From positions 62,001 to 126,000 of the forward strand of contig JASEFH010000005.1 in the NCBI GenBank assembly GCA_030019205.1: DNA of 64,000 bases, in the 5' to 3' direction. The notes beneath the pieces are model-generated. The model ran no database searches. It was not told the DNA's origin and saw only the letters and a list, made by a program, of their open reading frames with translations. The stretch's first letter is position 1. Each line of letters starts with the position of its first letter. A program made the position numbers and the translations under genes. The DNA is from Methanomicrobiales archaeon (GTDB lineage Archaea; Halobacteriota; Methanomicrobia; Methanomicrobiales; JACTUA01). This document shows positions 28,056-43,168 of this stretch, one piece after another.

Positions 28056-28090
28056 GGGTCCGCCACATCCCGTGGAGGAGTGTTAGACAG

Positions 28091-31000
28091 GTGATTCTCG
28101 TGGGATCCTGGAGATTCTGTGTAAAACTGATGGTATTGGCATCTCTCTGTATTGCCATGCTGATCGTGCCAGCCGTGCAGGCGGCCCCCTCGACCAGTGT
28201 TTCGGTGATCCGGTATGCCAACGACTGTGAGACGATATTAAACCAGAAATCGTACACCTACCAGCAGCTGGAGCGGGAGTTCCCCGTGCACGGGGATGGG
28301 ATGACGCACTACTACTTCCAGGGCCCGACCTTCAACGAGTCCGATCCCTGGGATCCCGGGGAATGGCAGAACGTGGACACCCGGGACTTCGGGGCGGTGA
28401 AGGGGACGGATATCAAGGACCTCTGCGAGGCGGTGGGCGGGATGTCGCCCGGCGAGACGGTGCGGTTCAAGGCGACCGACGGCTTCCAACGCGACTTCTC
28501 CTACGAGGCCGTGTACGGCACTGATCCCCGCAAGGGCCCGATGGTCCTCGCCTGGTACAACGGCGAGGAGTCCCAGGGGGGATACGAGCTCCAGGGCGAG
28601 GGGTACCCTGACACCGGATATTACAAGGGCATGCGGCTCTTCTTCTTCGCCGATACCTCCGGCAATACCGAGGGTAAGCATGTCTTCGGGCACTGGGACA
28701 TGCACGAGACCCTGCCCGAGAGCGACTGGTACTATTACAACGGCATCTGGCCCTCTTCCGGGGGTCTCTCCGTCTACAACATCGACCGCATCCTGATCTA
28801 CAGCGACGATGATCCCGTGGGCGGCATCCAGGTGACGTCGGTGCCGGACGGTGCCCGGATCCTGCTGGACGGAGCGGATACGGGCGAGGTGACCAATATC
28901 ACGCTCACGGACATGCCCCCGGGCGAGTATCTCGTCTCGCTCGCTCTGGATGGCTACGAAGAGGCCGAAGAGACGGTGACGGTGGTGGCCGGCCGAACGG
29001 TCCCCGTTCACGTCGATCTGGTCCCGATGGAGGGTATGGGAGACAGCGGAGCGGATGGAGATCCGGACGCCGACTCCGGCTATCGGGGACGGACGCTAAC
29101 CACGCTGACCCAGGGGACGCTGAACGGCAGCCTGGCAGTCTACCGCAGCAGCGAGGCGGCGGCGACCCTCGCCGGGGGAAAGAGCGCCGCCTACACGATA
29201 CCGGCCCCGCTCCCGCCGAACGCGACGGTGCGCCTGGCCCGGCTCTGCCTCTACACCACGGGCGGATGGGACCGGGCCCTCAAGAAGGGTGCAGAGAGCA
29301 GCCTCTCGGTGACGTTCGACGGGCGGAGCCTGTCGCCCGACCGCAAGTACCGGGACGTGAACGCGAGCGATAATGAGGAGGTGCTCGAGACCGTCTGCTA
29401 CGATGTGACCGCGCTCGCCGCGAAGGGCGGCAACCATACCGTCGATGTGCGGAACACCGGGTCGGGAGATACGACTGTCACTCTCTACGGTGCCGTGCTG
29501 ATCGCCGTTAACGAGGATGCATCCCGCCCGGCGATCACCTACTGGATCGCGGAGGGCTGCGACGCGATCCGGGCGGACCCGGACGAGGGCGTGCTCGAGG
29601 ATGCAGCCACGACCGAGGCGGAGTTTGCCGAGGATGTCAGCGGGGACATCGCAGAAGCCCGGCTCACCATCATCGCCACCGCGGCAACGGGGACCGACGA
29701 GCGCGTCAACCGCATCCTCATGAACGAGGGGGAGTGGGACAACCACCTGGATGGCGGAACGGACAGCATCAGCATCGTCGGGATCGACGTGCGGCCATAC
29801 CTGAAACAGAGCGGGAACCATGCGGAGGTTCGGAGCATCCCCGTGCAGGAGACGGGTGATTATCTGGAGGTGCGCCACGCCATCCTGGTGCTCGCAGAGG
29901 GAATGGCGGGTGCGGAGCCGGCGGGCAATGCCACTCCCACCGGAACCCCCACGCCCCCCGCCACCGCGGTCGAGACCACCCTGACACCGGCCGCCAGCCC
30001 CACGGCATCCGGGCTCACGAACACGTCGCAGCCGCAGGGGGGCGGGGGTATCCTGGGCTGGCTCCAGGCGGTCCTCGACGGGATCCTGCAGTTCCTGCTC
30101 TCGCCCTTCTCCGCCGTCGACGTGCAGAATGCATCGACGGGGGCGGAACCGACGCTCTCACCGCTTCCCACCACCGCGGCCACCCCGGCGCCCGGGGAGG
30201 AGACCCGCAACCGCACCGCCAGCCTCTCCGTCGCCACGATCCCCCCGAGCGCGATGGTCTACCTGGATGGGGTCTATACGGGGAGGACGACTCCGGTGCG
30301 GCTGGAGGATCTCCCCTGCGGCAGCCACAGTCTCCGCCTGGAGCTGGAAGGGTTCACCGCGGAGGAGCGGGAGGTCCTCCTGGAGCATGACGCGAACCTC
30401 TCGATCGTGCTCCGCTCGCGGGCAAAGCCGTTCCCGGATACGATCGGCGAGACGGTGGTCGAAAAGGATCGGGAGGCGGTGCATTCCGGCGGGCTCTACA
30501 TCACCTCCTTTCCCAGCGGCGCCCGTGTGACCGTGGACAATCGCAAGCTCGACAAGACCACTCCCTGCATCGTATATGGGTTAAAAGAGGGGCAGCATAC
30601 GGTGCGGCTGACGATCGGGCAGCAGGATGCGGAGAGCGAGACGGCGAGGGTCTGGGTATACCCGCAGACGATCTCGCCCCTTCACGTCGAGATGAACCGG
30701 AACGAATGGATCCGCACGATCACGGTCGAGTCCGAAGCCTACCGGCGGGAGCACTTCACGGTAAACGGCGCCTATCCGCTGAAGAAGGTCCCCGCCACAG
30801 CGGACATCTCGGGGCTGGATGCCTACATCACCTTCCTCCGCGACGGGTCCTACCGCACCTACCGCCTGGACAACCACCTGAACAGCGGCGACGTGTTCGA
30901 TGTGCCCACCGCCGACCTCCGCCTCTTCAGCCTCCGGGTGGAGTCGGAACCGGCGGGAGCGGATATATTCATCGACGGCTACGCGACCGGCTACTCCACG

Positions 31001-31360
31001 CCCTACAGGATAGAGAACATCTCCGAAGGTCCGCACCGCGTGATGCTCTCGAAGCCCGGCTACACCGCGGCGGAGAAGAGCATCCGCCTGGGGTGGACTC
31101 CGGGGGAGCCGGCGAATCAGACTATCCGGCTCCGGCTGGAGGAGTACGTCTGGGGGTTCCTGACGGTGGACAGCACGCCGGCGGGGGCGAAGATCTACAT
31201 CGACGGGCGGGACAGCGGCGAGAAGACCCCGCACACGTTCCCGGCCATGCCCATCGGATCCTACGACGTGAAGGTGGTCGGGGAGACGGCGTCCCGAACC
31301 CGGGAGCGGGTGACGGTGGTTCCCGGGCAGAACACGCGGATCACCGTCGATCTCACCTGA
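28091..31360 (+). CDS. Secreted protein with Moco-fold-like N domain, DUF3344 and PEGA repeats, 1089 aa
   Basis: After a signal peptide (VLASLCIAMLIVPAVQA) comes a domain shared with two neighbours (30-242), recognised by HYYFQGP, KGTDIKDLCEAVGGMSPGE and FGHWDMHE. A PEGA domain follows (246-312), then DUF3344 (331-607) with ITYWIAEGCDAIRA and a threonine/proline linker. At least four more PEGA domains (about 710-774, 800-867, 944-1015, 1020-1089) have the pattern S.P.GA.V.+DG...G.TTP. No dockerin and no C-terminal helix are present. GTG was chosen as start with GGAGGAG ten bases upstream; the longer in-frame option overlaps the previous gene. PEGA domains are usually envelope-associated, and the function is unknown. 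Confidence 0.8.
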   Translation: MILVGSWRFCVKLMVLASLCIAMLIVPAVQAAPSTSVSVIRYANDCETILNQKSYTYQQLEREFPVHGDGMTHYYFQGPTFNESDPWDPGEWQNVDTRDFGAVKGTDIKDLCEAVGGMSPGETVRFKATDGFQRDFSYEAVYGTDPRKGPMVLAWYNGEESQGGYELQGEGYPDTGYYKGMRLFFFADTSGNTEGKHVFGHWDMHETLPESDWYYYNGIWPSSGGLSVYNIDRILIYSDDDPVGGIQVTSVPDGARILLDGADTGEVTNITLTDMPPGEYLVSLALDGYEEAEETVTVVAGRTVPVHVDLVPMEGMGDSGADGDPDADSGYRGRTLTTLTQGTLNGSLAVYRSSEAAATLAGGKSAAYTIPAPLPPNATVRLARLCLYTTGGWDRALKKGAESSLSVTFDGRSLSPDRKYRDVNASDNEEVLETVCYDVTALAAKGGNHTVDVRNTGSGDTTVTLYGAVLIAVNEDASRPAITYWIAEGCDAIRADPDEGVLEDAATTEAEFAEDVSGDIAEARLTIIATAATGTDERVNRILMNEGEWDNHLDGGTDSISIVGIDVRPYLKQSGNHAEVRSIPVQETGDYLEVRHAILVLAEGMAGAEPAGNATPTGTPTPPATAVETTLTPAASPTASGLTNTSQPQGGGGILGWLQAVLDGILQFLLSPFSAVDVQNASTGAEPTLSPLPTTAATPAPGEETRNRTASLSVATIPPSAMVYLDGVYTGRTTPVRLEDLPCGSHSLRLELEGFTAEEREVLLEHDANLSIVLRSRAKPFPDTIGETVVEKDREAVHSGGLYITSFPSGARVTVDNRKLDKTTPCIVYGLKEGQHTVRLTIGQQDAESETARVWVYPQTISPLHVEMNRNEWIRTITVESEAYRREHFTVNGAYPLKKVPATADISGLDAYITFLRDGSYRTYRLDNHLNSGDVFDVPTADLRLFSLRVESEPAGADIFIDGYATGYSTPYRIENISEGPHRVMLSKPGYTAAEKSIRLGWTPGEPANQTIRLRLEEYVWGFLTVDSTPAGAKIYIDGRDSGEKTPHTFPAMPIGSYDVKVVGETASRTRERVTVVPGQNTRITVDLT

Positions 31361-31379
31361 TGCGGGGTCGGTCCCCGCA
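31361..31379 (+). terminator. Stem-loop after the PEGA protein gene
   Basis: A 7-bp stem, TGCGGGG and CCCCGCA with loop TCGGT, starts immediately after the stop codon. It has no strong T-run, so it may be a weak terminator or an mRNA 3'-end structure. Confidence 0.45.
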
Positions 31380-31536
31380 TCGGGAAGCGTGGTTAATCGC
31401 GGGTAATTAACTTCGAGCCAGAATAGGGGGATTTATTGTTATGGCCGTTGAACAATTCGTATTCCCGAATCGGGTGCTCCGTAGCAGGGCGAATCCATCT
31501 CTTCGCCCGGGTGTGCGGATATCGGGAGAGGGATGC

Positions 31537-32373
31537 ATGCGTATCGAGAAGGTGCTGATGGGGGTGCTCCTGCTGGTCTGCCTCGTGGGAGGCATCGTGC
31601 AGGCAGCGCCGACGACGGAAGTGCGGGTGGTCAAGATTGCCGCCGACGGCGAGACCATCCTGAACGAGACCACGGTCAGTTACCCGTGGATGGAGGCGAA
31701 TCTCCCCGTGCAGGGAGATGGGGTAACGCACTACTACCACCAGGGCCCGGTCTTCGAAGAGGATCAGGAGGGCCGCTGGGACCCGAATGAGACGACGAAT
31801 TTCAAGGACCGGGGCGCGGTGAAGGGGACGGATGTCAAGGATCTCGCCGAGCTCGTGGGTGGCATGCAGCCCGGCGACGAGGTGATGATCCACGCCGTCG
31901 ACGGCTACCATGTGGAGTTCCCCTATGAGAACGTCTACGAGCCGCAGCCGCGGCAGGGCCCGATCGTCGTCTGCTGGTACAACGGCGAAGATTCGCCTAT
32001 AGGGGAGCGCGACGGCGTCGGCTATCCGCCGGACTACTTCGCGGGGATGCGGCTCGTCTTCTTCGCGGACACCTCCACCAACGCGGAGGGCAAACATGTC
32101 TTTGGCAACTGGGATATGCACGAGGTGATGCCGGAGGAGGAGATCCACCTCTTCGACGATCTCTACCCATCGACGAACGGCTACACGGTCAAGTGGATCG
32201 ACGAGGTGCGGATCTACAGCGGGGGCTACCACGGCGAGAAGGGCTCCACGGTGAAGTCCCTTTCGGGGGCGGCGGAGACGACCACGCCCGCCGTCCAGAG
32301 TCCGCTCCCGCTCGCGCCCGTCCTGCTCGCTCTCGTGCTGGTTCTCCTCGTGGGGGTCCGGAGGAACCGCTGA
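31537..32373 (+). CDS. Membrane-anchored single-domain protein of the HYYHQGP/NWDMHE family, 278 aa
   Basis: A signal peptide (ending GGIVQAA) precedes one copy of the domain found at the N termini of the 1838- and 1089-residue proteins: EANLPVQGDGVTHYYHQGP, then KGTDVKDLAELVGGMQPGD, then FGNWDMHEVMPEEE. A short threonine/serine linker and a C-terminal helix PLAPVLLALVLVLLVGVRRNR-like anchor end the protein. The middle part resembles the core of the sulfite-oxidase molybdopterin fold (RD-like LVGG..PGD), without an obvious Mo-ligating cysteine at that place. ATG was chosen with GGGAGAGGG upstream. Its stop overlaps the ATG of the next lipoprotein gene (TGATG), tying the surface family to the Mo/W import operon. 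Confidence 0.8.
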   Translation: MRIEKVLMGVLLLVCLVGGIVQAAPTTEVRVVKIAADGETILNETTVSYPWMEANLPVQGDGVTHYYHQGPVFEEDQEGRWDPNETTNFKDRGAVKGTDVKDLAELVGGMQPGDEVMIHAVDGYHVEFPYENVYEPQPRQGPIVVCWYNGEDSPIGERDGVGYPPDYFAGMRLVFFADTSTNAEGKHVFGNWDMHEVMPEEEIHLFDDLYPSTNGYTVKWIDEVRIYSGGYHGEKGSTVKSLSGAAETTTPAVQSPLPLAPVLLALVLVLLVGVRRNR

Positions 32374-32939
32374 TGCCTGCGAGGACAGTCGGGCTGGCGA
32401 TCCTTCCCCTCCTCCTGGCATGTGCGCTCTCCAGCGGCTGCACGGCCTCTGTCGCCCCGCTCCCGCCCGAGGCGGAGGGCTGGACGCTCACGCTGAACGG
32501 CACGACCGAGAAGGTGCTGGACTACGACGCGCTCCGTGAGCTACCGTCCGTCACGGGGCACGGGTTTGCCGTCTCGACGGTGGGGATCAAGTACGGGCCT
32601 TATGTCTGCAGAGGCGTGGACCTGCGGGACCTGGCCGCGCTGGTAGGAGGGGTGGAGCCCGGGGATCAGGTCTGGGTCTCCGCTCCGGACGGCTACCTCT
32701 GGGTCTTCGACTACGACCAGCTGCAGGGGGAGGGATTCATCACCCTGGATCCGGATCTGAAGGAGATCCCAGCACCGCCGCTCCGGGTGATCCTGATGTA
32801 CGAGCAGGATGGCAAGCCGCTCAGCTACGATGACGGAGGCCCGGCCCGGATCGCGATCGTCTCCGGGGAGGCAGGGGTCGTGACGGAGGGGAGCGCCTGG
32901 GTGAAGTGGGTGGACCGGATCGAGATCCGCAGAACGTAA
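32373..32939 (+). CDS. Lipoprotein with sulfite-oxidase-like molybdopterin-binding fold, 188 aa
   Basis: The N terminus carries a lipobox, LSSGC, so the protein is probably lipid-anchored outside the cell. The rest reads as a minimal Oxidored_molyb-like domain: WTLTLNGTTEKVLDYDALRE, YVCRGVDLRDLAALVGGVEPGD, SAPDGYLWVFDYDQL, MYEQDGKPLSYDDGGPARI and SAWVKWVDRIEI. The cysteine in YVCRG is near, but not clearly at, the position of the Mo ligand in true sulfite oxidases, so catalysis is doubtful. The gene overlaps the upstream anchored protein and sits 17 nt before wtpA. A role in presenting molybdate, tungstate or cofactor to the importer is an inference from that position. Confidence 0.75.
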   Translation: MPARTVGLAILPLLLACALSSGCTASVAPLPPEAEGWTLTLNGTTEKVLDYDALRELPSVTGHGFAVSTVGIKYGPYVCRGVDLRDLAALVGGVEPGDQVWVSAPDGYLWVFDYDQLQGEGFITLDPDLKEIPAPPLRVILMYEQDGKPLSYDDGGPARIAIVSGEAGVVTEGSAWVKWVDRIEIRRT

Positions 32940-32956
32940 CCGAGGGGAGAAGGGCG

Positions 32957-33970
32957 ATGCGGAGTGCCTGTCTTCTGGTGATGGCGGCCCTCATCGTGGG
33001 TGCCGTGGGCACTGCCGGGTGCAGCGGCGATGAGCCGGAGGAGACGGTCCTCCGGGTGCTGCCCGCCGGAAGCCTGCTCCTGCCCTTCGAGGAGATCGAG
33101 AGGGAGTTCGAGGCCCGGCACCCCGGCGTGGACGTGCAGATCGAGGGGCACGGCAGCATCCAGGTCATCCGCCAGGTGACCGACCTCCGCCGCGAGATTG
33201 ACGTGGTGGCGGTCGCCGACGAGTCGCTGATACCGGATTTGATGTACATCCCCATGGACGGGAGCGGGAAGAACTACACCGACTGGTACGTCCCGTTCGC
33301 CGCCAACGAGATGGTGATCGCCTACACCGATCGCAGCCGGTATGCCGATGCGATCACGCCGACGAACTGGGCGGAGATCCTCTCCCGTCCGGACGTGCGG
33401 GTCGGGTTCTCCAACCCGATGCTGGATGCGGCCGGCTATCGCACGCTGATGGTGGTCCAGCTGGCGGAGGGCTATTACGGGGGCCCGGCCCTGTTCGAGC
33501 AGGTCATCGGCAGCCATTTCAATCCGCCGCTCTCCGTGAGCGAGGAGGGAGGCGTGTCCACGATTGCGCTCCCGGAGATCCTGAAGCCCTCGGACGGCAA
33601 GGTGGCCATCCGGGACGGCAGCATCTACCTCCTCTCCCTCCTGGACGCCGGCGGCATCGACTATGCCTTCGAGTACCGCAGCGTCGCCGAGGCGCACGGG
33701 CTCCGCTGGCTGGACTTGCCGGCGGAGATCGACCTGGGCTCTCCGGAACGGGATCCCCTCTACCGAACGGTAAAAGTGCAGCTCGGGTTCCAGCGGTTCC
33801 GCTCGATCGGGAGCGAGCGGACGGGGCGGCATATTGTGTATGCAATCACCATCCCGGAGAACGCACCGCAGCGGGAGCTGGCAGAAGCGTTCGTGCAGCG
33901 GGTCGTCGAGGAGTTTGCAGAGGCGAAGCCGGGCTGGCCGGCACCGCTCGCCGCGGCGCAGGAGGAGTGA
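32957..33970 (+). CDS. wtpA: Tungstate/molybdate ABC transporter substrate-binding lipoprotein WtpA, 337 aa
   Basis: The extracellular oxyanion receptor of an archaeal WtpABC/ModABC importer. A lipobox-like TAGC is followed by RVLPAGSLLLPFEEIEREFE and HPGVDVQIEGHGS, typical of the WtpA/ModA group. Family features continue with YVPFAANEMVIAYTDRS and ILSRPDVRVGFSNPMLDAAGYR. The length fits the family. The ATG is preceded by GGGGAGAAGGG. It is the first gene of the importer proper, with a TrmO-like gene inserted before the permease. Confidence 0.9.
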   Translation: MRSACLLVMAALIVGAVGTAGCSGDEPEETVLRVLPAGSLLLPFEEIEREFEARHPGVDVQIEGHGSIQVIRQVTDLRREIDVVAVADESLIPDLMYIPMDGSGKNYTDWYVPFAANEMVIAYTDRSRYADAITPTNWAEILSRPDVRVGFSNPMLDAAGYRTLMVVQLAEGYYGGPALFEQVIGSHFNPPLSVSEEGGVSTIALPEILKPSDGKVAIRDGSIYLLSLLDAGGIDYAFEYRSVAEAHGLRWLDLPAEIDLGSPERDPLYRTVKVQLGFQRFRSIGSERTGRHIVYAITIPENAPQRELAEAFVQRVVEEFAEAKPGWPAPLAAAQEE

Positions 33971-33973
33971 TGA

Positions 33974-34498
33974 ATGGAGCAGATCTGTTATACCCCCATC
34001 GGCATCCTCCGCACACCGTTCCAGAAGGGGAGCGAAACCCCCATCCAGGCGGCATTCAGCGATGTGCCGGGGCGGGCGGAGATATTCCCCGAGTACGTGG
34101 AGGGGCTGGAGGATCTCGAAGGATTCTCCCACATCATCCTCATCTACCACTTCCACCGGGCGCATGGCTTCAGCCTGCGGGAGCGGCCGTTTCTGGACGG
34201 ATCGAAGAGTCGGGGCATCTTCGCCGTCCGATACTACCGTCGGCCGAACCCCATTGGCATCTCCACGGTGCGGCTGGTGGAGATCCAGAACGGCGTCATC
34301 GAGTTCAGGGGGGCAGACATGCTCGATTCCACCCCGCTCCTGGACATCAAGCCCTTCGTGAAGGCGTTCGACAACCGCGCGTCCACCCGGGACGGCTGGG
34401 TGGATGCACAGCGGCTGGATGGGCTGTCCGCCGGAGCGGCGACGCCGCAGAGGCTGGGGGGGAGGGATGCAGGAAGAGCGCCGCCGGAAAGGGAGTAG
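33974..34498 (+). CDS. TrmO/TsaA-like AdoMet-dependent methyltransferase, 174 aa
   Basis: A protein of the TsaA/TrmO (VirR) family, whose studied members methylate N6-threonylcarbamoyladenosine at position 37 of tRNA. Family motifs are YTPIGILRTPFQKGSETPIQ near the N terminus, then YVEGLEDLEGFSHIILIYHF, YYRRPNPIGISTVRL and PLLDIKPFVKAFD. It starts 3 nt after wtpA and overlaps the start of wtpB by 32 nt, so it is embedded in the transporter operon. Whether it modifies tRNA or has a role tied to oxyanion uptake cannot be told from sequence. Confidence 0.85.
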   Translation: MEQICYTPIGILRTPFQKGSETPIQAAFSDVPGRAEIFPEYVEGLEDLEGFSHIILIYHFHRAHGFSLRERPFLDGSKSRGIFAVRYYRRPNPIGISTVRLVEIQNGVIEFRGADMLDSTPLLDIKPFVKAFDNRASTRDGWVDAQRLDGLSAGAATPQRLGGRDAGRAPPERE

Positions 34499-35360
34499 CT
34501 TCGGGGATCTGCGGGGTCCGTTGCGGTGGCGGGCGGTCGGCGAGCCGCTCTTCCGCCGGACGGGGCGGATCGACCGCTGCACCCTGGCGTTCTCGATCGT
34601 CGGCGGGCTGCTCGTCGCGATCACGGTCCTGGCCCTGGCCGCGATCGCGCTGCCGGAGCTTCAGGACATCCGCCACCTGACGGAGGTGGCAGCGGACAGC
34701 GGCGTCCTGGACTCGATCCTGATCACGTTCGCCGCGGGGTTCTGCGCCGTCGCCGTCCTGATCGTCCTCGGGACCCCGCTCGCCTACCTCCTCGCCCGCG
34801 GGCAGAGCGGCTGGAAGGGGATCCTGGAGAGCATCGTGGACATGCCCCTCATCCTCCCCCACACCGTGGCGGGGCTCATGGTCTACATCCTCTTCATGTC
34901 CCGGGGCTGGTTGGGGGCGCCGCTCCAGGAGGTGGGGCTGGCCTTCGAGGATGCCTTCCCGGGGATCGTGGCGGCGATGCTCTTCGTCGCCTCCCCCTAC
35001 TACGTCAACACCGCGCGGGAGGGGTTCGAGAAGGTCCCCCTCCACCTGGAGAACGTCGCGAGGACGCTCGGGGCCACGCGCTTCGGAGCGTTCCTGCACG
35101 TGACCCTCCCCCTGACCCTGCGGCACATCTACAGCGGTTCCGCGCTCGCCTGGGGGCGTGCGGCCGGGGAGTTCGCCGCCGTCGTCATGATCGCATACTA
35201 CCCCCTGGTCGTCTCCACGCTCATCTACTACCGTTTCACCACCGGCGGGCTCGCCGAGAGCCGGAGCATCGCTTTTATGGTGATCGTGGTCTCGCTCTGC
35301 ATCTTCTTCCTTCTCCGGCACATGACGCGCTACATCGGGCGGTACCATGATCGAGTTTGA
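34467..35360 (+). CDS. wtpB: Tungstate/molybdate ABC transporter permease WtpB, 297 aa
   Basis: An inner-membrane permease of the CysTW/ModB type with about six helices. The cytoplasmic EAA loop that contacts the ATPase reads ENVARTLGATRFGAFLHVTLP. Helices such as IVDMPLILPHTVAGLMVYILF and the ending SIAFMVIVVSLCIFFLLRHM are typical. The ATG has GGGGGGAGGG just upstream. It overlaps the TrmO-like gene before it and wtpC after it by 14 nt, consistent with a tightly coupled operon. The cytoplasmic N-terminal extension of about 40 arginine-rich residues is longer than usual, so the start could be further downstream. Confidence 0.9.
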   Translation: MQEERRRKGSSFGDLRGPLRWRAVGEPLFRRTGRIDRCTLAFSIVGGLLVAITVLALAAIALPELQDIRHLTEVAADSGVLDSILITFAAGFCAVAVLIVLGTPLAYLLARGQSGWKGILESIVDMPLILPHTVAGLMVYILFMSRGWLGAPLQEVGLAFEDAFPGIVAAMLFVASPYYVNTAREGFEKVPLHLENVARTLGATRFGAFLHVTLPLTLRHIYSGSALAWGRAAGEFAAVVMIAYYPLVVSTLIYYRFTTGGLAESRSIAFMVIVVSLCIFFLLRHMTRYIGRYHDRV

Positions 35361-36402
35361 GGGCTTCTCTCTAGATCTGGTGGGGTTCGAGTTGAAAGAA
35401 GTGAACCTACGCATGGGGCGCGGGGAGTACTGGGCGATCCTGGGCCCCTCGGGTGCTGGCAAGACGGTTCTCCTCGAGTGCATCGCCGGCCTTCACACCC
35501 CGGCGCGGGGAAGGATCCGCGTGCGGGACCGGGACGTGACTCACCTCCCGCCGGAGAAACGCCGCATCGCGCTCGTCTACCAGGACTACTCCCTCTTCCC
35601 CCACATGACGGTGGAGAGGAACATCGCCTTCGGGCTGCGGATGCAGAACCTTCCTGCAGAGGAGATCCGGCAGCGGGTGCAGGGGCTCATCGATCAGTTC
35701 GGGCTGGCGGCGTTTCGGGAGCGATACCCCGCCTCCCTCTCCGGCGGGGAGCAGCAGCGGGTGGCGATCGCCCGGGCGCTCGCCGTCGATCCCGAGATCC
35801 TGCTCCTCGACGAGCCTCTCGCCGCCCTGGATCCCCCCACGCGGGAGCGGCTCATGTCGGACCTGCGGGCGCTCCACCGCGATCGGGGGCTCACCATCGT
35901 CCACGTCACCCATTCCCGCGAGGAGGCCCTCGCTCTGGCAGACCGGGCCGCGATCGTGATGGACGGGCGGGTGGTCCAGTCGGGCGCGGTCGCCGACGTC
36001 TTCGGCTGGCCCGGGAACCCGGCGGTGGCCCGGTTCCTGGGCTACGAGAATATTTTGATATCAACGGTGCTTGCCTGTAGCGGGGGGGAGTGCAGCGTAG
36101 ATGTGGACGGCATCGAGGTGCGGGGGATCGCGCGGGAGACCTCTCCCGGAGACGCCGCCGCCGTCTGCATCCGAGCGGCGGACGTCCGGCTGTCCGCATC
36201 GGGCAGTAATGGTATATCGAACACTCTGGAAGGTGTGATTCGCGAGATCGTCCCCCTGGGCTCCCGAACGCGGGTGCGGCTGGACTGCGGGTTCCCCCTC
36301 GCCGCCGAGGTGCCGGCGGCGGAGTCCACCCTCTCTCCTGGGGCGGGCGTCACGGCATCCTTCAGCCCGCGTGCAGCCCGGGTGATCCCCTGGCTCGAGT
36401 AG
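35347..36402 (+). CDS. wtpC: Tungstate/molybdate ABC transporter ATP-binding protein WtpC, 351 aa
   Basis: The ATPase of the WtpABC importer. Walker A is GPSGAGKT, the Q-loop is YQDYSLFPHMTV, the signature is SLSGGEQQR, Walker B is ILLLDEPLAALD and the switch histidine lies in IVHVTHSREEA. The C-terminal part from about residue 235 (ILISTVLACSGGE and following) is a TOBE/MOP-like regulatory domain that in homologues binds the transported oxyanion and inhibits transport. This offers feedback control without a separate regulator. Confidence 0.93.
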   Translation: MIEFEGFSLDLVGFELKEVNLRMGRGEYWAILGPSGAGKTVLLECIAGLHTPARGRIRVRDRDVTHLPPEKRRIALVYQDYSLFPHMTVERNIAFGLRMQNLPAEEIRQRVQGLIDQFGLAAFRERYPASLSGGEQQRVAIARALAVDPEILLLDEPLAALDPPTRERLMSDLRALHRDRGLTIVHVTHSREEALALADRAAIVMDGRVVQSGAVADVFGWPGNPAVARFLGYENILISTVLACSGGECSVDVDGIEVRGIARETSPGDAAAVCIRAADVRLSASGSNGISNTLEGVIREIVPLGSRTRVRLDCGFPLAAEVPAAESTLSPGAGVTASFSPRAARVIPWLE

Positions 36403-36459
36403 CGGGAGGTATAGGAGCCCTGCGGGAATGCAGGCCTCGGGTATCCCGACAGAACGGGG

Positions 36460-37161
36460 TTAGCCCACGACGAGGTCGCGGTATCCCCCGTTCCAGGGCT
36501 CGACGTAGAGCACCGCCTGACCGTCCACGAGGGCCGGCTTGGGAAACTTCTTCAGGTGAACGGCCCCCTCCGAGATCCGCTCCCCGGCCTGGGTCATGAC
36601 CCGGTCGACCCCGCCCTCCAGGAGGGCCGCAACGGTCTGGGTTCCCTGCAGGTCTCGGGTCCGTTGCCGGACAATGAACCGCCCGTCGTTCCGGGATGCA
36701 GCCAGCCCGATCCCGGCCAGTGCCCCGATGACGCCGTCCCGGCTGCCGGCGAGTCCTTCGAGGAGAACGCCGCATGCATCCGCGAGCTCGAGGGCGGACT
36801 TCTGCGTCAGAACCTGCGTCTTGGCCGCCCGCCCGAAGGCCAGAACTTCCGGGGGTAGAGCGTCGGCCCGCGCGACCGCAAGCCCGGGATCGCTCCCCTC
36901 GATGTATTCGGCCAGCAGCAGTTCCCGGGCCTGCTGAAAGATCCCTTCGCAGGAATCATCTGCCAAATCTCCGCCCAAGTGCAGTACGGCGGAGCTATTG
37001 TGTGAGGTATAGGGTATCGAGGGGTGGACGTAGAGCTGGTGCCGGGTCACACCAAGAATTGTGTAGTCTCTGGAGAGCGTAGCTGCGATCTGGCGTGCGA
37101 GGCGGCCGGTGCCCCGTGACGAAGGAATGTCGGTATCATCGATGCCGAGGTATACAGTCAT
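36460..37161 (-). CDS. TiaS-like stand-alone protein (N-terminal region of the agmatidine-synthase family), 233 aa
   Basis: The start MTVYLGIDDTDIPSSRGTGR matches the hallmark IDDTD and GTGR motifs of tRNA(Ile2) agmatinylcytidine synthase and related proteins. The later part has ADALPPEVLAFGRAAKTQVL and LEGLAGSRDGVIGALAGIGL, as in that family's N-terminal region. True TiaS is about 400 residues and carries OB-fold and zinc-ribbon domains, which are absent here. A different substrate or a partial, paralogous function is likely. A TATA-like CTATACAAAG lies about 30 nt upstream and AAGGAG precedes the ATG. It is convergent with wtpC. Confidence 0.7.
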   Translation of the reverse strand: MTVYLGIDDTDIPSSRGTGRLARQIAATLSRDYTILGVTRHQLYVHPSIPYTSHNSSAVLHLGGDLADDSCEGIFQQARELLLAEYIEGSDPGLAVARADALPPEVLAFGRAAKTQVLTQKSALELADACGVLLEGLAGSRDGVIGALAGIGLAASRNDGRFIVRQRTRDLQGTQTVAALLEGGVDRVMTQAGERISEGAVHLKKFPKPALVDGQAVLYVEPWNGGYRDLVVG

Positions 37162-37366
37162 GTGCGGTAACTCCTTGATGAGGAGGGCTTTGTATAGCGT
37201 ATGCAGCGGGTGCAGATAGCAGTTCCTGCTGGGGTTAAAGTGAATACATTAACATTCCGGCTGGAAATCCCTCCACATGCATTCCGGGCGCCAGAGCGAT
37301 ATCCGATTGGCGGTGATACTGTGAAATTCTGTATCGGCTTCGCCAGATTGCAGGTCGCATCGGTTG

Positions 37367-37380
37367 TTAATATATTATAC
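37367..37380 (+). promoter_or_regulatory. TATA-box-like element of a possible RNA gene
   Basis: TTAATATATTATAC stands out in this GC-rich DNA. It lies about 25-30 nt before the AT-to-GC boundary where a series of predicted hairpins begins. There is no convincing plus-strand protein gene directly downstream. Confidence 0.45.
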
Positions 37381-37402
37381 TTTACCAATACGAAAAGTTA
37401 AA

Positions 37403-37568
37403 TTAATATTGGCGCCTATACTCTGATGGTTGCTCGCCATGCAACCATACAGGAGGCGGGCCGTACCTCCCTATCCTCCATGGATAAACCTCATGGATTG
37501 CGGTCATGAAGACCTCGGACAGACAGGTGGAAGGGTATCAGGGGGATCCCCCCATCTTCCTCAATTTT
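37403..37568 (+). ncRNA. Possible structured non-coding RNA, unknown class
   Basis: Five consecutive hairpins follow a TATA-like element in a gap between two minus-strand genes. The first (37423-37452) pairs CTGATGGTTGC with GCAACCATACAG through 11 base pairs with one bulged A around a TCGCCAT loop. The second pairs GGAGG (37452-37456) with CCTCC (37466-37470). The third pairs TCCATG with CATGGA (37477-37497), and the fourth pairs GGTC with GACC (37502-37514). The last (37529-37560) nests GGGGG/CCCCC inside GGAAG/CTTCC and is followed by TTTT, like a terminator. No known RNA family was recognised. The start and end are estimates. Confidence 0.4.
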
Positions 37569-37584
37569 AATCGAATTAAAGAGC

Positions 37585-37601
37585 CCTGTCCTCATGACAG
37601 G
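37585..37601 (-). terminator. Terminator of the molybdenum-storage-like gene
   Basis: Directly after the minus-strand stop codon, CCTGTC pairs with GACAGG around ATGAG. CTCTTTAATT follows on that strand, a plausible intrinsic-type terminator. Confidence 0.55.
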
Positions 37602-37603
37602 TG

Positions 37604-38410
37604 TCAGGCCCGGATAATCGTGCCCACCCGTTCGCCTTCGACCGCCTTTGTGATGTTTCCCGGCACGTGGCCGTTCACCACCTTGATCTCCTTCACGTGC
37701 TTGGTGGAGAGGAGGAGTTCGATCGCTTTCTGCTCGAGCACGACGTCCTCCGGGTTCCTCTGCAGCAGCTCCTCGGCCCGGATCTCGGGGATGAACTCGG
37801 CGTCCGGGTTCACGCGGGGATCCTCTGTATAGAGGCCGTCCACGTTCTTGGCGAGGATGCAGTTCTTCGCCCCGAGCACCTCGGCGATCAGGACGGCACC
37901 GGTATCGGTGCGGTGCGGCGGGATCGACCCCACCCGCGCCGGCTGCTCGTAGAGGCCGTAGGGCGGAGTACCATGGATGACGGGCAGCATCCCGAGCGAG
38001 AGGAGCATGGGCAGCTCCAGAAGATCCGAGGTATGGATGCGGACCCCGTTGTACTTCGAGAGCAGGATCTGCATCATGATAGCGTTCTGCTCGCTGATCT
38101 TGGATGCCAGCTCGGCGAGCACCCCGGTGGGCATGCCGAGATCGATCCCGATGTCCATGATATGCCGTACCCGCCCGCCGCCGCCGGTCACTACCAGGAT
38201 CTTGTGGCGCTTGGAGAGCTCCCCGAACTCCTCGACAAGGGGAAAGATCACCTCTTTCCCGTAATCCATCATCCCGTATCCCCCGATCTTGATAACGTTG
38301 AGATCCGGGATTAGCCGTATCTGGGGAATTCCAGCGGTTCGCCGCATCAGCCCCTTCCGCACCAGGGTCTCGCCGCGGAGTTTTGATTCGATTTCATGCC
38401 GTTCAGCCAT
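37604..38410 (-). CDS. Molybdenum storage protein homologue (amino acid kinase fold), 268 aa
   Basis: The protein has the amino acid kinase fold and strongly resembles MosA/MosB of the Azotobacter Mo/W storage protein, which packs polyoxomolybdate clusters inside an ATP-dependent hexameric cage. Conserved-looking stretches are VVTGGGGRVRHIMDIGIDLG, MPTGVLAELASKISEQNA, IPPHRTDTGAVLIAEVLGAK, DGLYTEDPRVNPDAEFIPEI and HVKEIKVVNGHVPGNITKA. It could also be annotated as a UMP-kinase-like protein, but the IPPHRTD segment and the neighbours favour storage. The ATG chosen lies about 40 nt after a TATA box; an upstream in-frame ATG would overlap the promoter. Only one subunit gene is present, so a homo-oligomer is inferred. 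Confidence 0.8.
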   Translation of the reverse strand: MAERHEIESKLRGETLVRKGLMRRTAGIPQIRLIPDLNVIKIGGYGMMDYGKEVIFPLVEEFGELSKRHKILVVTGGGGRVRHIMDIGIDLGMPTGVLAELASKISEQNAIMMQILLSKYNGVRIHTSDLLELPMLLSLGMLPVIHGTPPYGLYEQPARVGSIPPHRTDTGAVLIAEVLGAKNCILAKNVDGLYTEDPRVNPDAEFIPEIRAEELLQRNPEDVVLEQKAIELLLSTKHVKEIKVVNGHVPGNITKAVEGERVGTIIRA

Positions 38411-38446
38411 GGCCAAATCAACTCTGGATAATTCTTCAGGATAAAC

Positions 38447-38456
38447 GTATATATAT
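38447..38456. promoter_or_regulatory. Symmetrical TATA element between divergent genes
   Basis: CGTATATATATG reads as a TATA box on either strand. It is about 40 nt from the ATG of the storage-protein gene on the minus strand and about 45 nt from the ATG of the small plus-strand gene. Both may use overlapping promoters. Confidence 0.5.
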
Positions 38457-38499
38457 GTCTGGGTGTATTGTGTGCTATCGTGCAATGGATGTGAGACCG

Positions 38500-38730
38500 A
38501 TGAAGATCTATGCGCGAGAGAGGATTAAGATCGGAACCGGCGTCAAGGAGCCCCGCTTCCGCGTGGTCGCGGTGACGAGCGAAGAAGGTGCCCGCGAATC
38601 GCACTTGAAGATTGAGGCAGCGCACTTCCGAAAGACCGAACTCGAGAATATCGCCAAGGACGTGGGGGCGGAGATCGTCTACCTGGAGCCGATACCGGAG
38701 GAAGAGCGGGGCAAGATGAAGGAAGCGTAA
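38500..38730 (+). CDS. Small unknown protein, 76 aa
   Basis: A short basic/acidic protein starting MKIYARERIKIGTGVKEP and ending LEPIPEEERGKMKEA. It is predicted to be soluble, with a beta-rich first half and the helical segment RKTELENIAKDVGAEIVYLE. No family is recognised. It is divergent from the molybdenum-storage-like gene, sharing the promoter region, and lies upstream of the MOT1-type transporter gene, so a role in Mo/W metabolism is possible. An in-frame ATG five codons upstream is an alternative start. Confidence 0.6.
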   Translation: MKIYARERIKIGTGVKEPRFRVVAVTSEEGARESHLKIEAAHFRKTELENIAKDVGAEIVYLEPIPEEERGKMKEA

Positions 38731-38905
38731 TCCCCGCTCTTTTTCTTATCGATGCAGAGATGCAGGATCGCCGCTGCACGTTCTTTGGCAGGATTCAAAG
38801 TGAGAACCTACCATCCGCCACGGATGGCATACGGTTAAGGCAGCCTGTTTTACTTCGGCTCGATGTAAGAAGAGGTATATAGGTTTAAAGAGAGCAGACT
38901 AGTGC

Positions 38906-40036
38906 GTGGGAGACCGCGTGCGTTCCAAGGACCCCGATGGGGACGATCTACCGATCCGCTTCAACCTGAGCGAGCTGGCAGGCTCGGTCGGCGACTTCGG
39001 CACGATCCTCCCCATCGTCTTCGGGGTGGCGGCGGTCACGGACATCCCGCTTGCACCCGTATTCCTCTTCTTCGGCATCTGGTTCATCCTTACCGGCTGG
39101 TACTACCGCCTGCCCATCCCGATCGAGCCGATGAAGGCGATCGGGGTGGTCGTGATCGCCGAGGGGGTCGGCGCCAGAGTCGTGGCCGCATCCGGCATCC
39201 TGCTCGGGGTCCTCTTCTATGCGCTGGGATACTTCCGGGTAATGGGGGCGCTCCGTGAATTAATCCCCGATGCGGTCGTCCGCGGGATCCAGCTCGGACT
39301 CGCCCTGCTGCTGCTTCGCACCTCTCTGGGATTCATCGGGGCAGATCCCCTCTTCTTCCTGATCGCGCTCGGGATCGTTGCCACATTCTTCCTGCTGTCC
39401 CGCCGCACGGGAGTGCCCGACGTCTCGGCGCTGATCGTCGTTCTCCTCGGGGTGGCGGCGGGGATCTACATCCACGGGCTGCCGGAGTTCCGGTTCGACC
39501 TCTTCCCGGGGCTTGTCCTCCCGACCCTGGCGGATCTCACGAGCGGCCTGTGGGATCTCGCGGTCCCCCAGATCCCCCTTACCATCGTGAATTCAATCCT
39601 GGCCACCGCCCTCCTGGCGAGCGATCTCTTTCGCCGCAATGTGGAGCCGGATCGCCTCTCGAGGACGATCGGCCTGATGAACATCGTCTCTGCGCCACTG
39701 GGCGGATTCCCGATGTGCCACGGGGCCGGAGGTCTCGCCGCCCAGTACCGCTTCGGTGCACGTACGGGGGGCGCCAACATCTATGCGGGGCTGATCCTCC
39801 TCTTCGCCCTCCTCTTCTCAAGTCCGGAAGCAGTGGCGATCATCCCCGTTGGGGTATTCGGCGCCCTGCTCATCTTCGTCGCCCTGGAGCTCGGTCGGCA
39901 CGGCCGGAAGACGGAGTCGCTTCTCGTCACCGTGACCATCGCGGTGCTCGCACTGATCCTGGGGATCACCGTGGCGTTCATCGCCGGGCTGATCCTGGCC
40001 TATGGAATCACGTACATAACGAAGAAACGGCAATAA
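38906..40036 (+). CDS. MOT1-family molybdate (sulfate-permease-like) transporter, 376 aa
   Basis: A polytopic membrane protein of the MFS_MOT1/SulP-related group, whose plant and algal members take up molybdate with high affinity. The signature regions appear as ELAGSVGDFGTILPIVFGV near the N terminus, YRLPIPIEPMKAIGVVVIAE, and PLGGFPMCHGAGGLAAQYRF in the second half, with about ten helices. The start is a GTG; a TATA box (GGTATATAGG) about 25 nt upstream fits a leaderless mRNA. It lies between the storage-protein homologue and the TupABC operon. Confidence 0.85.
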   Translation: MGDRVRSKDPDGDDLPIRFNLSELAGSVGDFGTILPIVFGVAAVTDIPLAPVFLFFGIWFILTGWYYRLPIPIEPMKAIGVVVIAEGVGARVVAASGILLGVLFYALGYFRVMGALRELIPDAVVRGIQLGLALLLLRTSLGFIGADPLFFLIALGIVATFFLLSRRTGVPDVSALIVVLLGVAAGIYIHGLPEFRFDLFPGLVLPTLADLTSGLWDLAVPQIPLTIVNSILATALLASDLFRRNVEPDRLSRTIGLMNIVSAPLGGFPMCHGAGGLAAQYRFGARTGGANIYAGLILLFALLFSSPEAVAIIPVGVFGALLIFVALELGRHGRKTESLLVTVTIAVLALILGITVAFIAGLILAYGITYITKKRQ

Positions 40037-40355
40037 GGACCCCCTGCTCGATCGCCATCAGGACCGGTGGGAGATAGCAGCTCGATACCTGTCCACGACC
40101 TCGCACGGGCGGGTGCTGCCGACATCTTTTAAACCTCCATGGAGCTGATCCGCAACGCTCAGACCCGTTTGGACATGGCGTTGACGGATCAGGGCCGGAT
40201 GGAGAGAATTGACGTAAAATTCCCGATAGGTGCGGGATATCTTTCTATCCGAATTAGACCACGTAAATGCAGGAATTCCGTGTTTGTTAAAGAAATCTGG
40301 TTGACGTGCTGGAGGAAACGTATTAATAGAATCGCGATTCTCTCGATGAATCGTT
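40037..40355. other. Intergenic region upstream of tupA with long inverted repeat
   Basis: The 319 nt hold a TATA-like CTTTTAAACC near 40126-40135 and, at 40145-40192, a 14-bp stem with one bulged base: CTGATCCGCAACGC against GCGTTGACGGATCAG. A second TATA-like CGTATTAATAGA lies about 26 nt before the tupA ATG. A short open frame starting MELIRNAQTRLDMAL overlaps the repeat but shows no family. Confidence 0.5.
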
Positions 40356-41306
40356 ATGAGACACAGAAACCTGATTTCAACTGCCGGGATCGCTCTGATA
40401 GCGGTCCTCCTCGCCTTCAGTGCGGGCTGCACCGTTGAAGATCTCACGAACGTCGATAACGCAACCCCGACGCCGACGGCCGGCCCCGGGGGCGTCCTGC
40501 GGATCGCGACCACGACGAGCCTGGATGCCACAGGTCTCCTCGCCGAGATTGAGGAAACCTACGAGGGCATGACGGGTGTCGACATGCAGATCATCGCCCA
40601 GGGCACGGGCCAGTCCCTGGAGACCGCCCGGCGCTGCGACGTCGACCTGGTGCTCGTGCACGCGCCGTCGCTGGAGGAGCAGTTCATCGCCGATGGCTTC
40701 GGCATCAACCACCGCTGCTTCGCCTACAACTACTTCATCATCGTCGGGCCCGAGAACGATCCGGCGGGGATCAACGGGACGGAGCCGGTAGAGGCGTTCC
40801 AGGCGATCTTCGAGGCGGGCGAGAACGGAACTCCGGGCGTCGCCTTCGTCTCCCGCGGTGACAACTCCGGCACGCATACGGCCGAGCGACTGCTCTGGGA
40901 AGCGGCCGGCTACAACTACGCCACCGATATCCAGGGATCGAACTGGTACTTCGAGACCGGCCAGGGCATGGGCGAGACACTGGTCCAGGCCAACGAGCGG
41001 AACGGCTACACGCTCTCGGACGAGGGGACGTATCTCTCGCTCCAGCGGAATCTGGATCTGGTGACGCTCGTGGGACAGGGGCCGGAGCTCCTGAACCGCT
41101 ACAGCGTGATGGCGGTCAACCCGGAGCAGTGCCCGGATGCGAACGTCGAGGCAGCGAACGGCTTCATCAACTGGCTCATCTCGGACGAGGGCAAGCAGCT
41201 GGTCGGCGAATTCGGCCAGGCGGAGTTCAACCAGTCGTTATTCACGCCACTCTACGAGCCGGAGTGCCAGCAGTTCAACTGCACCTGCTCCGGGTCGGTC
41301 TCCTGA
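40356..41306 (+). CDS. tupA: Tungstate ABC transporter substrate-binding lipoprotein TupA, 316 aa
   Basis: The extracellular tungstate receptor. A lipobox-like SAGC gives a lipid anchor, and a short threonine/proline linker follows. The ligand-binding start LRIATTTSLDATGLLAEIEE is diagnostic of the TupA family, with later segments DVDLVLVHAPSLEEQFIADG, GVAFVSRGDNSGTHTAE and EGTYLSLQRNLDLVTLV. The ATG is about 26 nt from a TATA box, so the transcript may be nearly leaderless. It begins the tupABC operon. A second oxyanion importer in the same window suggests separation of tungstate from molybdate supply. Confidence 0.92.
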   Translation: MRHRNLISTAGIALIAVLLAFSAGCTVEDLTNVDNATPTPTAGPGGVLRIATTTSLDATGLLAEIEETYEGMTGVDMQIIAQGTGQSLETARRCDVDLVLVHAPSLEEQFIADGFGINHRCFAYNYFIIVGPENDPAGINGTEPVEAFQAIFEAGENGTPGVAFVSRGDNSGTHTAERLLWEAAGYNYATDIQGSNWYFETGQGMGETLVQANERNGYTLSDEGTYLSLQRNLDLVTLVGQGPELLNRYSVMAVNPEQCPDANVEAANGFINWLISDEGKQLVGEFGQAEFNQSLFTPLYEPECQQFNCTCSGSVS

Positions 41307-41360
41307 TCGCGTGTACGGGTGGGATGGGGAGGGATAGGCTGTGTGCGGGGGGAGCGGGTG

Positions 41361-42065
41361 ATGCTGCTGCAGGTCACCGAGAACGAGATCATTGAGGGGA
41401 TCGTCGAAGCCATCCGGCTGATCGTGACCCTCGATCCGACGGTGATCGAGATCACGATCCGGTCGCTCTACGTCTCCCTCACCGCCACCTTCTTTGCTTC
41501 CTTAATCGCCCTCCCGCTCGGGGCGCTCATCTACTTCCGTGAGTTCCGGGGAAAAAGGGCCGTGATCAACACTCTCCAGACATTGTATGCGATGCCCACG
41601 GTGATCATCGGACTCGTCGCCTTCCTCCTCCTCTCGAGAACCGGTCCGTTCGGTTTCCTGGGTCTCCTCTTCACGCCCGGTGGAATGATCGTGGCCCAGA
41701 CGCTCCTGATAATTCCCCTGATCACCGGCCTCACCGTCGCTGCCATGAGCAATATCGAGCGGGAAATGCGCTACACCATCATCTCCATGGGAGCAAGCCT
41801 GTACCAATCAATCCTCACGATTTTGCGTGAGGCTCGGTTTGCAATCTTCACCGCCGTCCTGATCGGGTTTGGGCGGGCCATCGCGGAAGTGGGGACCGTG
41901 CTGCTGGTCGGCGGCAACATCCGCGGGTTCACCCGCGTGCTCACCACGGCGATCGCCCTCAATACCTCGATGGGGAACTTCACCCTGTCGATCGCGCTCG
42001 GGATCATCCTCCTGGGCGTGGCCCTGATCGTGAACCTGGTCCTGAACCTGGTGCAACAGCGATGA
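41361..42065 (+). CDS. tupB: Tungstate ABC transporter permease TupB, 234 aa
   Basis: A permease with about five or six helices. It has PTVIEITIRSLYVSLTATFF near the N terminus, FRGKRAVINTLQTLYAMPTV and the ATPase-contact loop IISMGASLYQSILTILREAR. The ATG follows a GGGGGGAGCGGGTG stretch; an earlier in-frame ATG gives a glycine-rich leader that is unlikely. It overlaps tupC by an ATGA. Confidence 0.9.
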   Translation: MLLQVTENEIIEGIVEAIRLIVTLDPTVIEITIRSLYVSLTATFFASLIALPLGALIYFREFRGKRAVINTLQTLYAMPTVIIGLVAFLLLSRTGPFGFLGLLFTPGGMIVAQTLLIIPLITGLTVAAMSNIEREMRYTIISMGASLYQSILTILREARFAIFTAVLIGFGRAIAEVGTVLLVGGNIRGFTRVLTTAIALNTSMGNFTLSIALGIILLGVALIVNLVLNLVQQR

Positions 42066-43168
42066 ACGAACTGATCACCGCACGGGAGATCTCCAAGGTC
42101 TACGGCGAACAAAATATACTGAAGGGCGTCAACCTCACCGTTCGGAAGGGAGAGATTCTCGGGATCATCGGCCCGAGCGGATCGGGGAAGAGCACCCTCC
42201 TGCGCATCCTCGACCTGATCGAGCCCCCGACCTCCGGGGATCTCAGGGTGTTCGGGGTGAATACTCGGGAGGAAGAGCATCGCTGGCTGGAGCTGCGCCG
42301 GCGGATGGGCATGCTCTTCCAGAAGCCGATCGTGTTCAACACGAACGTCTACCAGAACATTGCCCTGGGCCTGCAGTACCGCAGGCTGAACAGGGCGGAG
42401 ATCGAACGGAGGGTGAAGGCGGCGCTGGATTCTGTCGGACTTTCGCAGTACATCAAGAGCCGGGCCCGGGATCTATCCGGGGGCGAGCAGCAGCGGGTGG
42501 CGTTATCAAGGGTTCTCGTCACCCAACCGGAGATCCTCTTCCTGGATGAACCCACGGCCAACCTCGACCCGACCTCCACGGCCACTATCGAGAAGATCGT
42601 GCGCCGCCTGAACCGGGAGGACGGGATGACGGTGGTGATGAACACTCACGACATGCTCCAGGGGCAGCGCCTGTCCAACCGAATCGGCGTGATGATCGGC
42701 GGAACTCTCGTACAGACCGGCTCCCCCCAGGAGATCTTCCAGACACCGAAGTCCCGTGCGATTGCCAGATTCGTGGGGATAGAAAACATCCTCTCCGGCC
42801 CCATTCTTTCGAGGGACGGGAGTCACACCGTGGTGGAGGTGGAAGGGCAGAGGATCCTATCCACATCGACTCTGCCTGCCGGGGCAACGGAGGTCGATAT
42901 CCTCATACGGGGCGAGGACATCGATGTCCGGCGTCAGGAGCCAGCTGGCGGTTCTGATATGAACGTCTTCTCCTGCACCATCACCCGCATTGAATCGATC
43001 GCCCCTTACGTTCGCGTGGAGGTGAATTGCGGGGGATTTCCCCTCACCGTGCTGCTGACCGCCCGCTCGGCGGCGGCGCGTGAACTCGACACGGACATGG
43101 AGGCCTGGGTATCCTTCCGGGCAGATATTGTCCACATGCTGCCCCGAGAGAGCGGCGCTCCTGGGTGA
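42062..43168 (+). CDS. tupC: Tungstate ABC transporter ATP-binding protein TupC, 368 aa
   Basis: The ATPase of the tungstate importer. Walker A is GPSGSGKST, the Q-loop is MLFQKPIVFNTNVYQN (as in TupC), the signature is LSGGEQQR, Walker B is ILFLDEPTANLD and the H-loop is VVMNTHDM. It has a C-terminal extension of about 125 residues with TOBE-like features (VDILIRGEDIDV and following), longer than the minimal TupC. As in WtpC, this could allow feedback by bound oxyanion. The ATG overlaps the tupB stop. Confidence 0.9.
   Translation: MNELITAREISKVYGEQNILKGVNLTVRKGEILGIIGPSGSGKSTLLRILDLIEPPTSGDLRVFGVNTREEEHRWLELRRRMGMLFQKPIVFNTNVYQNIALGLQYRRLNRAEIERRVKAALDSVGLSQYIKSRARDLSGGEQQRVALSRVLVTQPEILFLDEPTANLDPTSTATIEKIVRRLNREDGMTVVMNTHDMLQGQRLSNRIGVMIGGTLVQTGSPQEIFQTPKSRAIARFVGIENILSGPILSRDGSHTVVEVEGQRILSTSTLPAGATEVDILIRGEDIDVRRQEPAGGSDMNVFSCTITRIESIAPYVRVEVNCGGFPLTVLLTARSAAARELDTDMEAWVSFRADIVHMLPRESGAPG

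Follow-up and report, generated by a model that had tools for sequence, protein, structure and literature searches.

Two surface proteins of predicted sulfite-oxidase fold are encoded as a conserved unit with a distinct WtpA-type binding protein in Methanomicrobiales

We analyzed a 64,000-nucleotide stretch of contig JASEFH010000005.1 (hereafter termed the window) from a Methanomicrobiales archaeon, in which positions 31537 to 43168 carry a set of genes related to molybdenum (Mo) and tungsten (W) transport and storage. At the head of this region lie three consecutive plus-strand genes that we term the triad. The first (31537..32373) encodes HYY-1, a surface protein with a signal peptide, a domain of predicted sulfite-oxidase fold displaying HYYHQGP and NWDMHE motifs, and a C-terminal transmembrane anchor. 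The second (32373..32939) encodes a lipoprotein of predicted sulfite-oxidase/PruR fold, which carries a lipobox cysteine and lacks the Mo-ligating one, and the third, wtpA2 (32957..33970), encodes a substrate-binding lipoprotein belonging to a triad-specific WtpA clade. The plus-strand set continues in order with a TrmO-like gene located between wtpA2 and wtpB (33974..34498; PF01980, E 2.3e-35), the permease gene wtpB (about 34464..35360) and wtpC (35347..36402), encoding an ATPase with a TOBE domain (PF00005, TOBE_2). An inverted repeat resembling a terminator (31356..31384), at the end of the preceding PEGA gene, separates that gene from the HYY-1 operon. The HYY-1 and lipoprotein genes overlap by one base (TGATG), as a preliminary description of this DNA had stated; the overlap it also claimed between the lipoprotein gene and wtpA does not exist, since wtpA2 starts 17 bases past the lipoprotein gene and is preceded by a Shine-Dalgarno-like GAGGGGA. 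No Rfam match was obtained between positions 27000 and 45000 of the window, so that no RNA element or riboswitch was recognised there.

In order to describe the conservation of this arrangement, HYY-1 was searched in 199 Methanomicrobiales genomes and forty neighbourhoods, each about 20 kb long, were retrieved. In 38 of the 39 Methanomicrobiales loci with a lipoprotein gene, the HYY-1, lipoprotein and wtpA2 genes follow one another in this order on one strand. When the 199 genomes were searched with a lipoprotein profile, the lipoprotein was present in all 68 genomes having a full HYY-1 and occurred without HYY-1 in three, all of them metagenome-assembled genomes (MAGs) 59-82% complete. The triad order is not mere unrearranged background, because the genes located 3' of the triad vary between lineages. 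We conclude that the association between HYY-1, the lipoprotein and wtpA is not due to chance and that the triad is a real unit. The preliminary description had proposed that the surface gene and the lipoprotein gene belong with the transporter and that gene order be compared across the order; both surface genes were indeed found conserved beside wtpA throughout Methanomicrobiales and beyond, and co-occur with each other genome by genome.

A scan of public genomes yielded 56 loci, of which 55 were labelled as Methanomicrobiales-type archaea (one of them only as 'Euryarchaeota') and one as a 'Clostridiaceae' MAG (L104), which is probably a misbinned Methanomicrobiales contig. Searching 295 genomes of the phylum identified the lipoprotein in nine genomes of two families outside Methanomicrobiales. 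Eight loci from outside the order were fetched and the triad was whole in six, again with the same order and strand; of the remaining two, L233 is truncated so that just the end of HYY-1 is left, and the HYY-1 gene of L234 would fall beyond the contig start. In L228 and L233 the triad runs straight into wtpB and wtpC, in L227 it is followed by a gene for an 80-aa protein, a winged-helix-like open reading frame and a gene for a Mo-storage protein (MoSto) homologue, and in L228-L231 a phosphoesterase gene lies upstream. The anchoring of the proteins outside the order takes another form: the 'lipoprotein' has no lipobox but an N-terminal anchor helix, and most of the HYY-1 proteins finish with a PGF-TM-Arg tail (TM, transmembrane), as do archaeosortase substrates. 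Carriage by viruses was considered and rejected: a pattern search of viral contigs gave 52 matches, none of them encoding a relative. The openly accessible literature that we searched yielded no description of the triad.

WtpA2 scored above the NCBIfam TIGR03730 cut-off (346.6 versus 242.75 bits). Its neighbours remained under the corresponding equivalog cut-offs (242 versus 340 bits for WtpB and 332 versus 440 bits for WtpC), although WtpB and WtpC were still their best NCBIfam matches. The Wtp and Tup gene names used here therefore rest on best matches, WtpA alone having passed its equivalog cut-off, and what we propose is a variant that would work like WtpABC. Similarity to the WtpABC systems of Pyrococcus furiosus and Archaeoglobus fulgidus extends to the permease and TOBE-domain ATPase, which are nearest to WtpB and WtpC, and to the aspartate that determines selectivity; in contrast to these systems, WtpA2 forms a separate clade, apparently lacks the glutamate of the solved WtpAs and shares its gene unit with two additional proteins that face outward. 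Mutation of this aspartate abolishes W selectivity in P. furiosus WtpA, in which Asp160 and Glu218 coordinate the metal (PMC10221389). The selectivity column is an aspartate in all WtpA2 sequences, as read from an alignment that did not include the P. furiosus sequence. In our tree, WtpA2 stood opposite canonical WtpA and the PDB WtpAs with a support of 100/100; the single row labelled canonical inside the WtpA2 clade corresponds to a contig start cutting off most of the lipoprotein. A loss of the metal-coordinating glutamate by WtpA2 alone was also envisaged and dropped, canonical WtpA of the same order having a serine in the likely column as well.

The distribution of wtpB points to the partner of WtpA2. 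All 37 triad-bearing genomes examined have wtpB and 12 of them lack canonical WtpA, a number that leaves out three further triad-bearing genomes with only a fused WtpA form of about 650 aa. Canonical WtpA was present in all 11 triad-free genomes with wtpB (12/37 versus 0/11, Fisher p 0.044, not corrected for relatedness), and among 40 triad-free genomes no WtpA match above the cut-off had the length of WtpA2. In G004, G010, G022 and G099, wtpBC lies in the Mo/W gene island described below without an adjoining wtpA; in the triad-free G016, a canonical wtpA occupies that spot beside the island wtpBC. Because in these genomes wtpB without canonical WtpA occurs only together with the triad, the triad most likely works with WtpBC, with WtpA2 as the binding protein. 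Larger WtpA forms were also observed: WtpA matches lie inside open frames of about 640-660 aa in G041, G072, G169, G068 and G011, and in L058 (6072-7751) a TupA match directly precedes a WtpA match, which suggests a fused TupA-WtpA binding protein.

Searching the PDB with HYY by sequence alone returned nothing significant, so a comparison of folds was needed. AlphaFold models of HYY-1 and of the lipoprotein had mean pLDDT values of 91.5 and 94.7, respectively. With Foldseek, the lipoprotein model matched SoxC (2xts, E 6.7e-7) and PruR (7kom, E 1.2e-6), then sulfite oxidases, and the best PDB fold for HYY-1 was PruR (E 3.7e-4), accompanied by the same sulfite-oxidase enzymes but more weakly than for the lipoprotein. 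The lipoprotein also matched PF00174 (Oxidored_molyb) above cut-off (E 3.6e-10; 40.1 versus 24 bits) and the PruR profile (E 5e-7). HYY-1 matched neither PF00174 nor any other Pfam or NCBIfam family; the HYY-1 and lipoprotein families are nevertheless related to each other by profile comparison (E 7e-12). Both proteins are thus predicted to have a sulfite-oxidase fold close to that of PruR. With the sulfite oxidase family (PF00174: SoxC, SorT, YedY) they share the fold and the GGPxR and KW motifs; unlike these enzymes, they possess neither a cysteine at the Mo position nor a dimerisation domain, and therefore no catalysis by a molybdenum cofactor (Moco) is expected. In the lipoprotein family the lipobox cysteine is the sole conserved cysteine and the residues round the Mo site read V-S-T-V-G. 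Without the Mo-ligating cysteine, neither the lipoprotein nor HYY-1 is likely to be a Moco enzyme, and we discarded that reading on this ground. The surface proteins had been described beforehand as resembling Moco-binding folds: the sulfite-oxidase fold is borne out by prediction for both proteins, and a Moco-binding label is not warranted, given the missing cysteine of the lipoprotein family.

Among solved single-domain proteins, PruR resembles the triad pair most closely, being a secreted protein with a single sulfite-oxidase-fold domain without the Mo cysteine (PDB 7kom, 7kos, 7kp2, 7rkb) that binds pterins and signals (PMC13259868). Its pocket comprises Tyr104 and Trp160 in Agrobacterium tumefaciens. 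The tyrosine aligns with an invariant tyrosine of the lipoprotein; C-terminal tryptophans of the lipoprotein are invariant in the order, their register relative to PruR Trp160 being unsure. Tyr85, Lys155 and Trp156 are invariant in 49 lipoproteins. In sulfite oxidase, the lysine of the KW motif contacts the pterin cofactor. Equivalent positions of HYY-1 are similarly constant (Tyr104 in 40/40, Lys199 in 39/40 and Trp200 in 40/40), and are kept in 5, 21 and 4, respectively, of 43 other HYY domains; HYY-1 members were grouped by similarity to the window protein, so this constancy reflects constraint within one group and not independent gain. In contrast to PruR, the triad has no DcpA or DTB regulator and no cyclic-di-GMP or kinase partner beside it, its neighbours being surface proteins and wtpA2, and the pair is archaeal, lipid- or membrane-anchored and linked to a tungstate-binding protein.

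The remainder of the region forms a Mo/W island. On the minus strand lie genes for a TiaS-like small protein (36460..37161; PF22641, the TiaS TCKD domain, with partial coverage, E 6e-6) and for a MoSto homologue of amino-acid-kinase fold (37604..38485, the start being probably at 38410). These are followed on the plus strand by genes for an 80-aa protein without Pfam or NCBIfam family (38488..38730) and for a MOT1-type molybdate transporter (38906..40036; PF16983, E 3.8e-53, 179 versus a cut-off of 30 bits). The last three plus-strand genes are tupA, encoding a substrate-binding lipoprotein (40356..41306; TupA is its sole NCBIfam match, at 204.7 versus 400 bits for the equivalog), the permease gene tupB (41361..42065; NF038017 above cut-off, TupB 169 versus 320 bits) and tupC, encoding an ATPase with a TOBE domain (42062..43168; PF00005, PF03459). 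The MoSto homologue matches MosB over nearly its full length (2ogx, E 5.8e-66) and MosA with E 5.6e-53, and is nearer to both than to other amino-acid kinases (226 versus 52 bits for the best uridylate kinase, E 8e-13). Unlike MosAB it is represented by one gene here, no search having been made for a second subunit. WtpABC, the MoSto homologue, MOT1 and TupABC had all been recognised within 12 kb beforehand and are present; the TrmO, TiaS-like and 80-aa genes, as well as the surface cluster located upstream, had been overlooked.

Genes for MoSto, the 80-aa and TiaS-like proteins, MOT1, TupABC and WtpBC, with TrmO in some cases, recur together in several Methanomicrobiales genomes. The same island is found in Methanoculleus-type genomes; a partial version occurs in the window's own family, in G026, where the TiaS-like gene, MoSto, MOT1, tupBC and the 80-aa gene lie on one contig. 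The juxtaposition of importers, MOT1 and storage cage, which had been called unusual, is thus typical; it is the triad that stands out as unusual. The latter lies inside the island in the window and away from it in most other Methanomicrobiales genomes; for this reason the conserved unit is HYY-1/lipoprotein/WtpA2 and not the whole 12 kb. Contamination of the contig had been suspected, since HYY is missing from ten further genomes of this family, and is not supported: the relatives G026, G038 and G044 carry the TiaS-like gene, which in G026 shares a contig with the other island genes listed above. Homologues of the 80-aa protein occur in 79 of 120 Methanomicrobiales genomes, repeatedly beside the MoSto or TiaS-like gene, and judging from this context it is possibly a new Mo/W homeostasis protein. 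Several genomes encode homologues of the TiaS-like protein, 47-61% identical, next to the island. In L217 (5951-6334), L218 (12266-12634), L220 (12738-13106), L221 (12156-12527) and L227 (11265-11630), the 80-aa gene adjoins a gene for a winged-helix-like protein (about 122 aa), which is absent from that spot in the window and is a candidate regulator of the island. L220, L221 and L231 likewise have a gene for a TrmO-like tRNA methyltransferase close to genes for Mo/W transport. In L221 (8982-12186) and L231 (979-4260), the gene for an additional ModA/WtpA-like binding protein is followed by TrmO and by genes for a permease sharing 34% identity with WtpB and for a second WtpC-like ATPase, apparently another oxyanion importer, which here includes TrmO.

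Upstream of the triad, the surface cluster extends through three plus-strand genes. These encode a PEGA/DUF3344 surface protein with an N-terminal HYY domain (28046..31360, true start uncertain; PF08308 in five copies, PF11824; motif HYYFQGP), a secreted metallophosphatase protein combining beta-helix, PKD, calcineurin-like phosphoesterase and dockerin-like parts (24747..28055; PF00149, E 8.6e-12), and an 1838-aa surface protein with HYY domains (16518..22034). The HYY domain of the PEGA protein is 55% identical to HYY-1. The 1838-aa protein also carries PKD repeats and a dockerin-like end, and its PF00174 domain (E 6e-17) contains no cysteine.

We consider it fairly probable that the triad is the outer capture part of a WtpABC-type importer, in which HYY-1 and the lipoprotein serve as extra extracytoplasmic binders and not as enzymes. 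WtpA2, a lipoprotein outside the membrane, would deliver tungstate or molybdate to WtpBC, encoded just downstream in the window and elsewhere in other genomes; we infer these roles from knowledge of the families and from the genome pattern. HYY-1, anchored in the membrane or envelope, and the lipoprotein, both having lost the Mo-ligating cysteine, would hold the substrate or a helper ligand for WtpA2, as their constant linkage and fold suggest. By analogy with PruR, the most specific guess for this ligand would be a pterin, a tentative proposal more apt to be wrong than right; the two proteins may instead bind the oxyanion directly or play a purely docking role. In a further, unlikely variant, they would bind extracellular molybdopterin or tungstopterin or their breakdown products, with the help of the phosphatase, and the freed oxyanion would pass to WtpA2, salvaging W/Mo from the enzyme cofactor of dead cells. 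Several observations weigh against the capture role. No wtpB is located nearby in about two thirds of the triads, and many genomes possess both canonical WtpA and WtpA2, so that the latter could have another ligand or partner. The glutamate of the solved WtpAs is replaced by serine in both Methanomicrobiales clades (in the likely column, the P. furiosus sequence being unaligned), and a neighbouring glutamate column of canonical WtpA is tyrosine, phenylalanine or histidine in WtpA2. Finally, the co-occurrence counts ignore relatedness among genomes.

That HYY-1 and the lipoprotein are PruR-like surface sensors which have co-opted WtpA2, reporting pterin or W/Mo status without any transport, appears unlikely. 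In its favour, no solved single-domain protein is closer to them in fold and profile than PruR, whose pterin binding and signalling do without the Mo cysteine (PMC13259868), and WtpA2 often lacks accompanying wtpBC. However, PruR has its signalling partner in a two-gene operon, whereas neither a GGDEF/EAL protein nor a sensor kinase was recognised among the neighbours of the triad; moreover, L228 and L233 have wtpBC directly after the triad, and the 12 wtpB genomes mentioned above have no WtpA other than WtpA2. It is quite unlikely that the HYY proteins and the lipoprotein belong to a surface matrix together with PEGA, PKD and dockerin proteins, wtpA2 being a bystander. HYY domains number up to 15 per genome, many of them in giant proteins of 1000-2200 aa, and the triad is embedded in an array of surface genes; the link could therefore be partly to the envelope, a further point against the capture role. 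Nonetheless, wtpA2 is the neighbour in 38/39 loci and also in each of the eight distant loci, it is absent where the triad is absent, and most other HYY domains lack the pocket residues that are retained in HYY-1. Import of another oxyanion, phosphate freed by the metallophosphatase or sulfate, through WtpA2 and its partners seems very improbable: 25 of the 39 triad loci do have a phosphoesterase gene on the triad's strand at a distance of no more than 6.5 kb, but WtpA2 exceeds the cut-off for tungstate WtpA, keeps the W-selectivity aspartate and, in several genomes, has genes for MoSto, MOT1 or Tup nearby.

Formylmethanofuran dehydrogenase makes hydrogenotrophic methanogens dependent on W or Mo, the supply of which is often very low. 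A capture role of the triad suggests a previously undescribed surface step in the gathering of scarce W/Mo; such a conserved step before an ABC importer, if true, would change the view of how methanogens compete for these metals, and would provide a first proposed function for the unclassified HYY domain. It would also show that some archaeal proteins now carrying a molybdopterin oxidoreductase annotation probably act in binding and should not be counted among the molybdoenzymes. Elsewhere in the window, we also noted a gene encoding a CheB-CheR-PAS fusion protein (6237-9287) and a type III CRISPR Cmr2/Cas10 gene on the minus strand (59972-61957).

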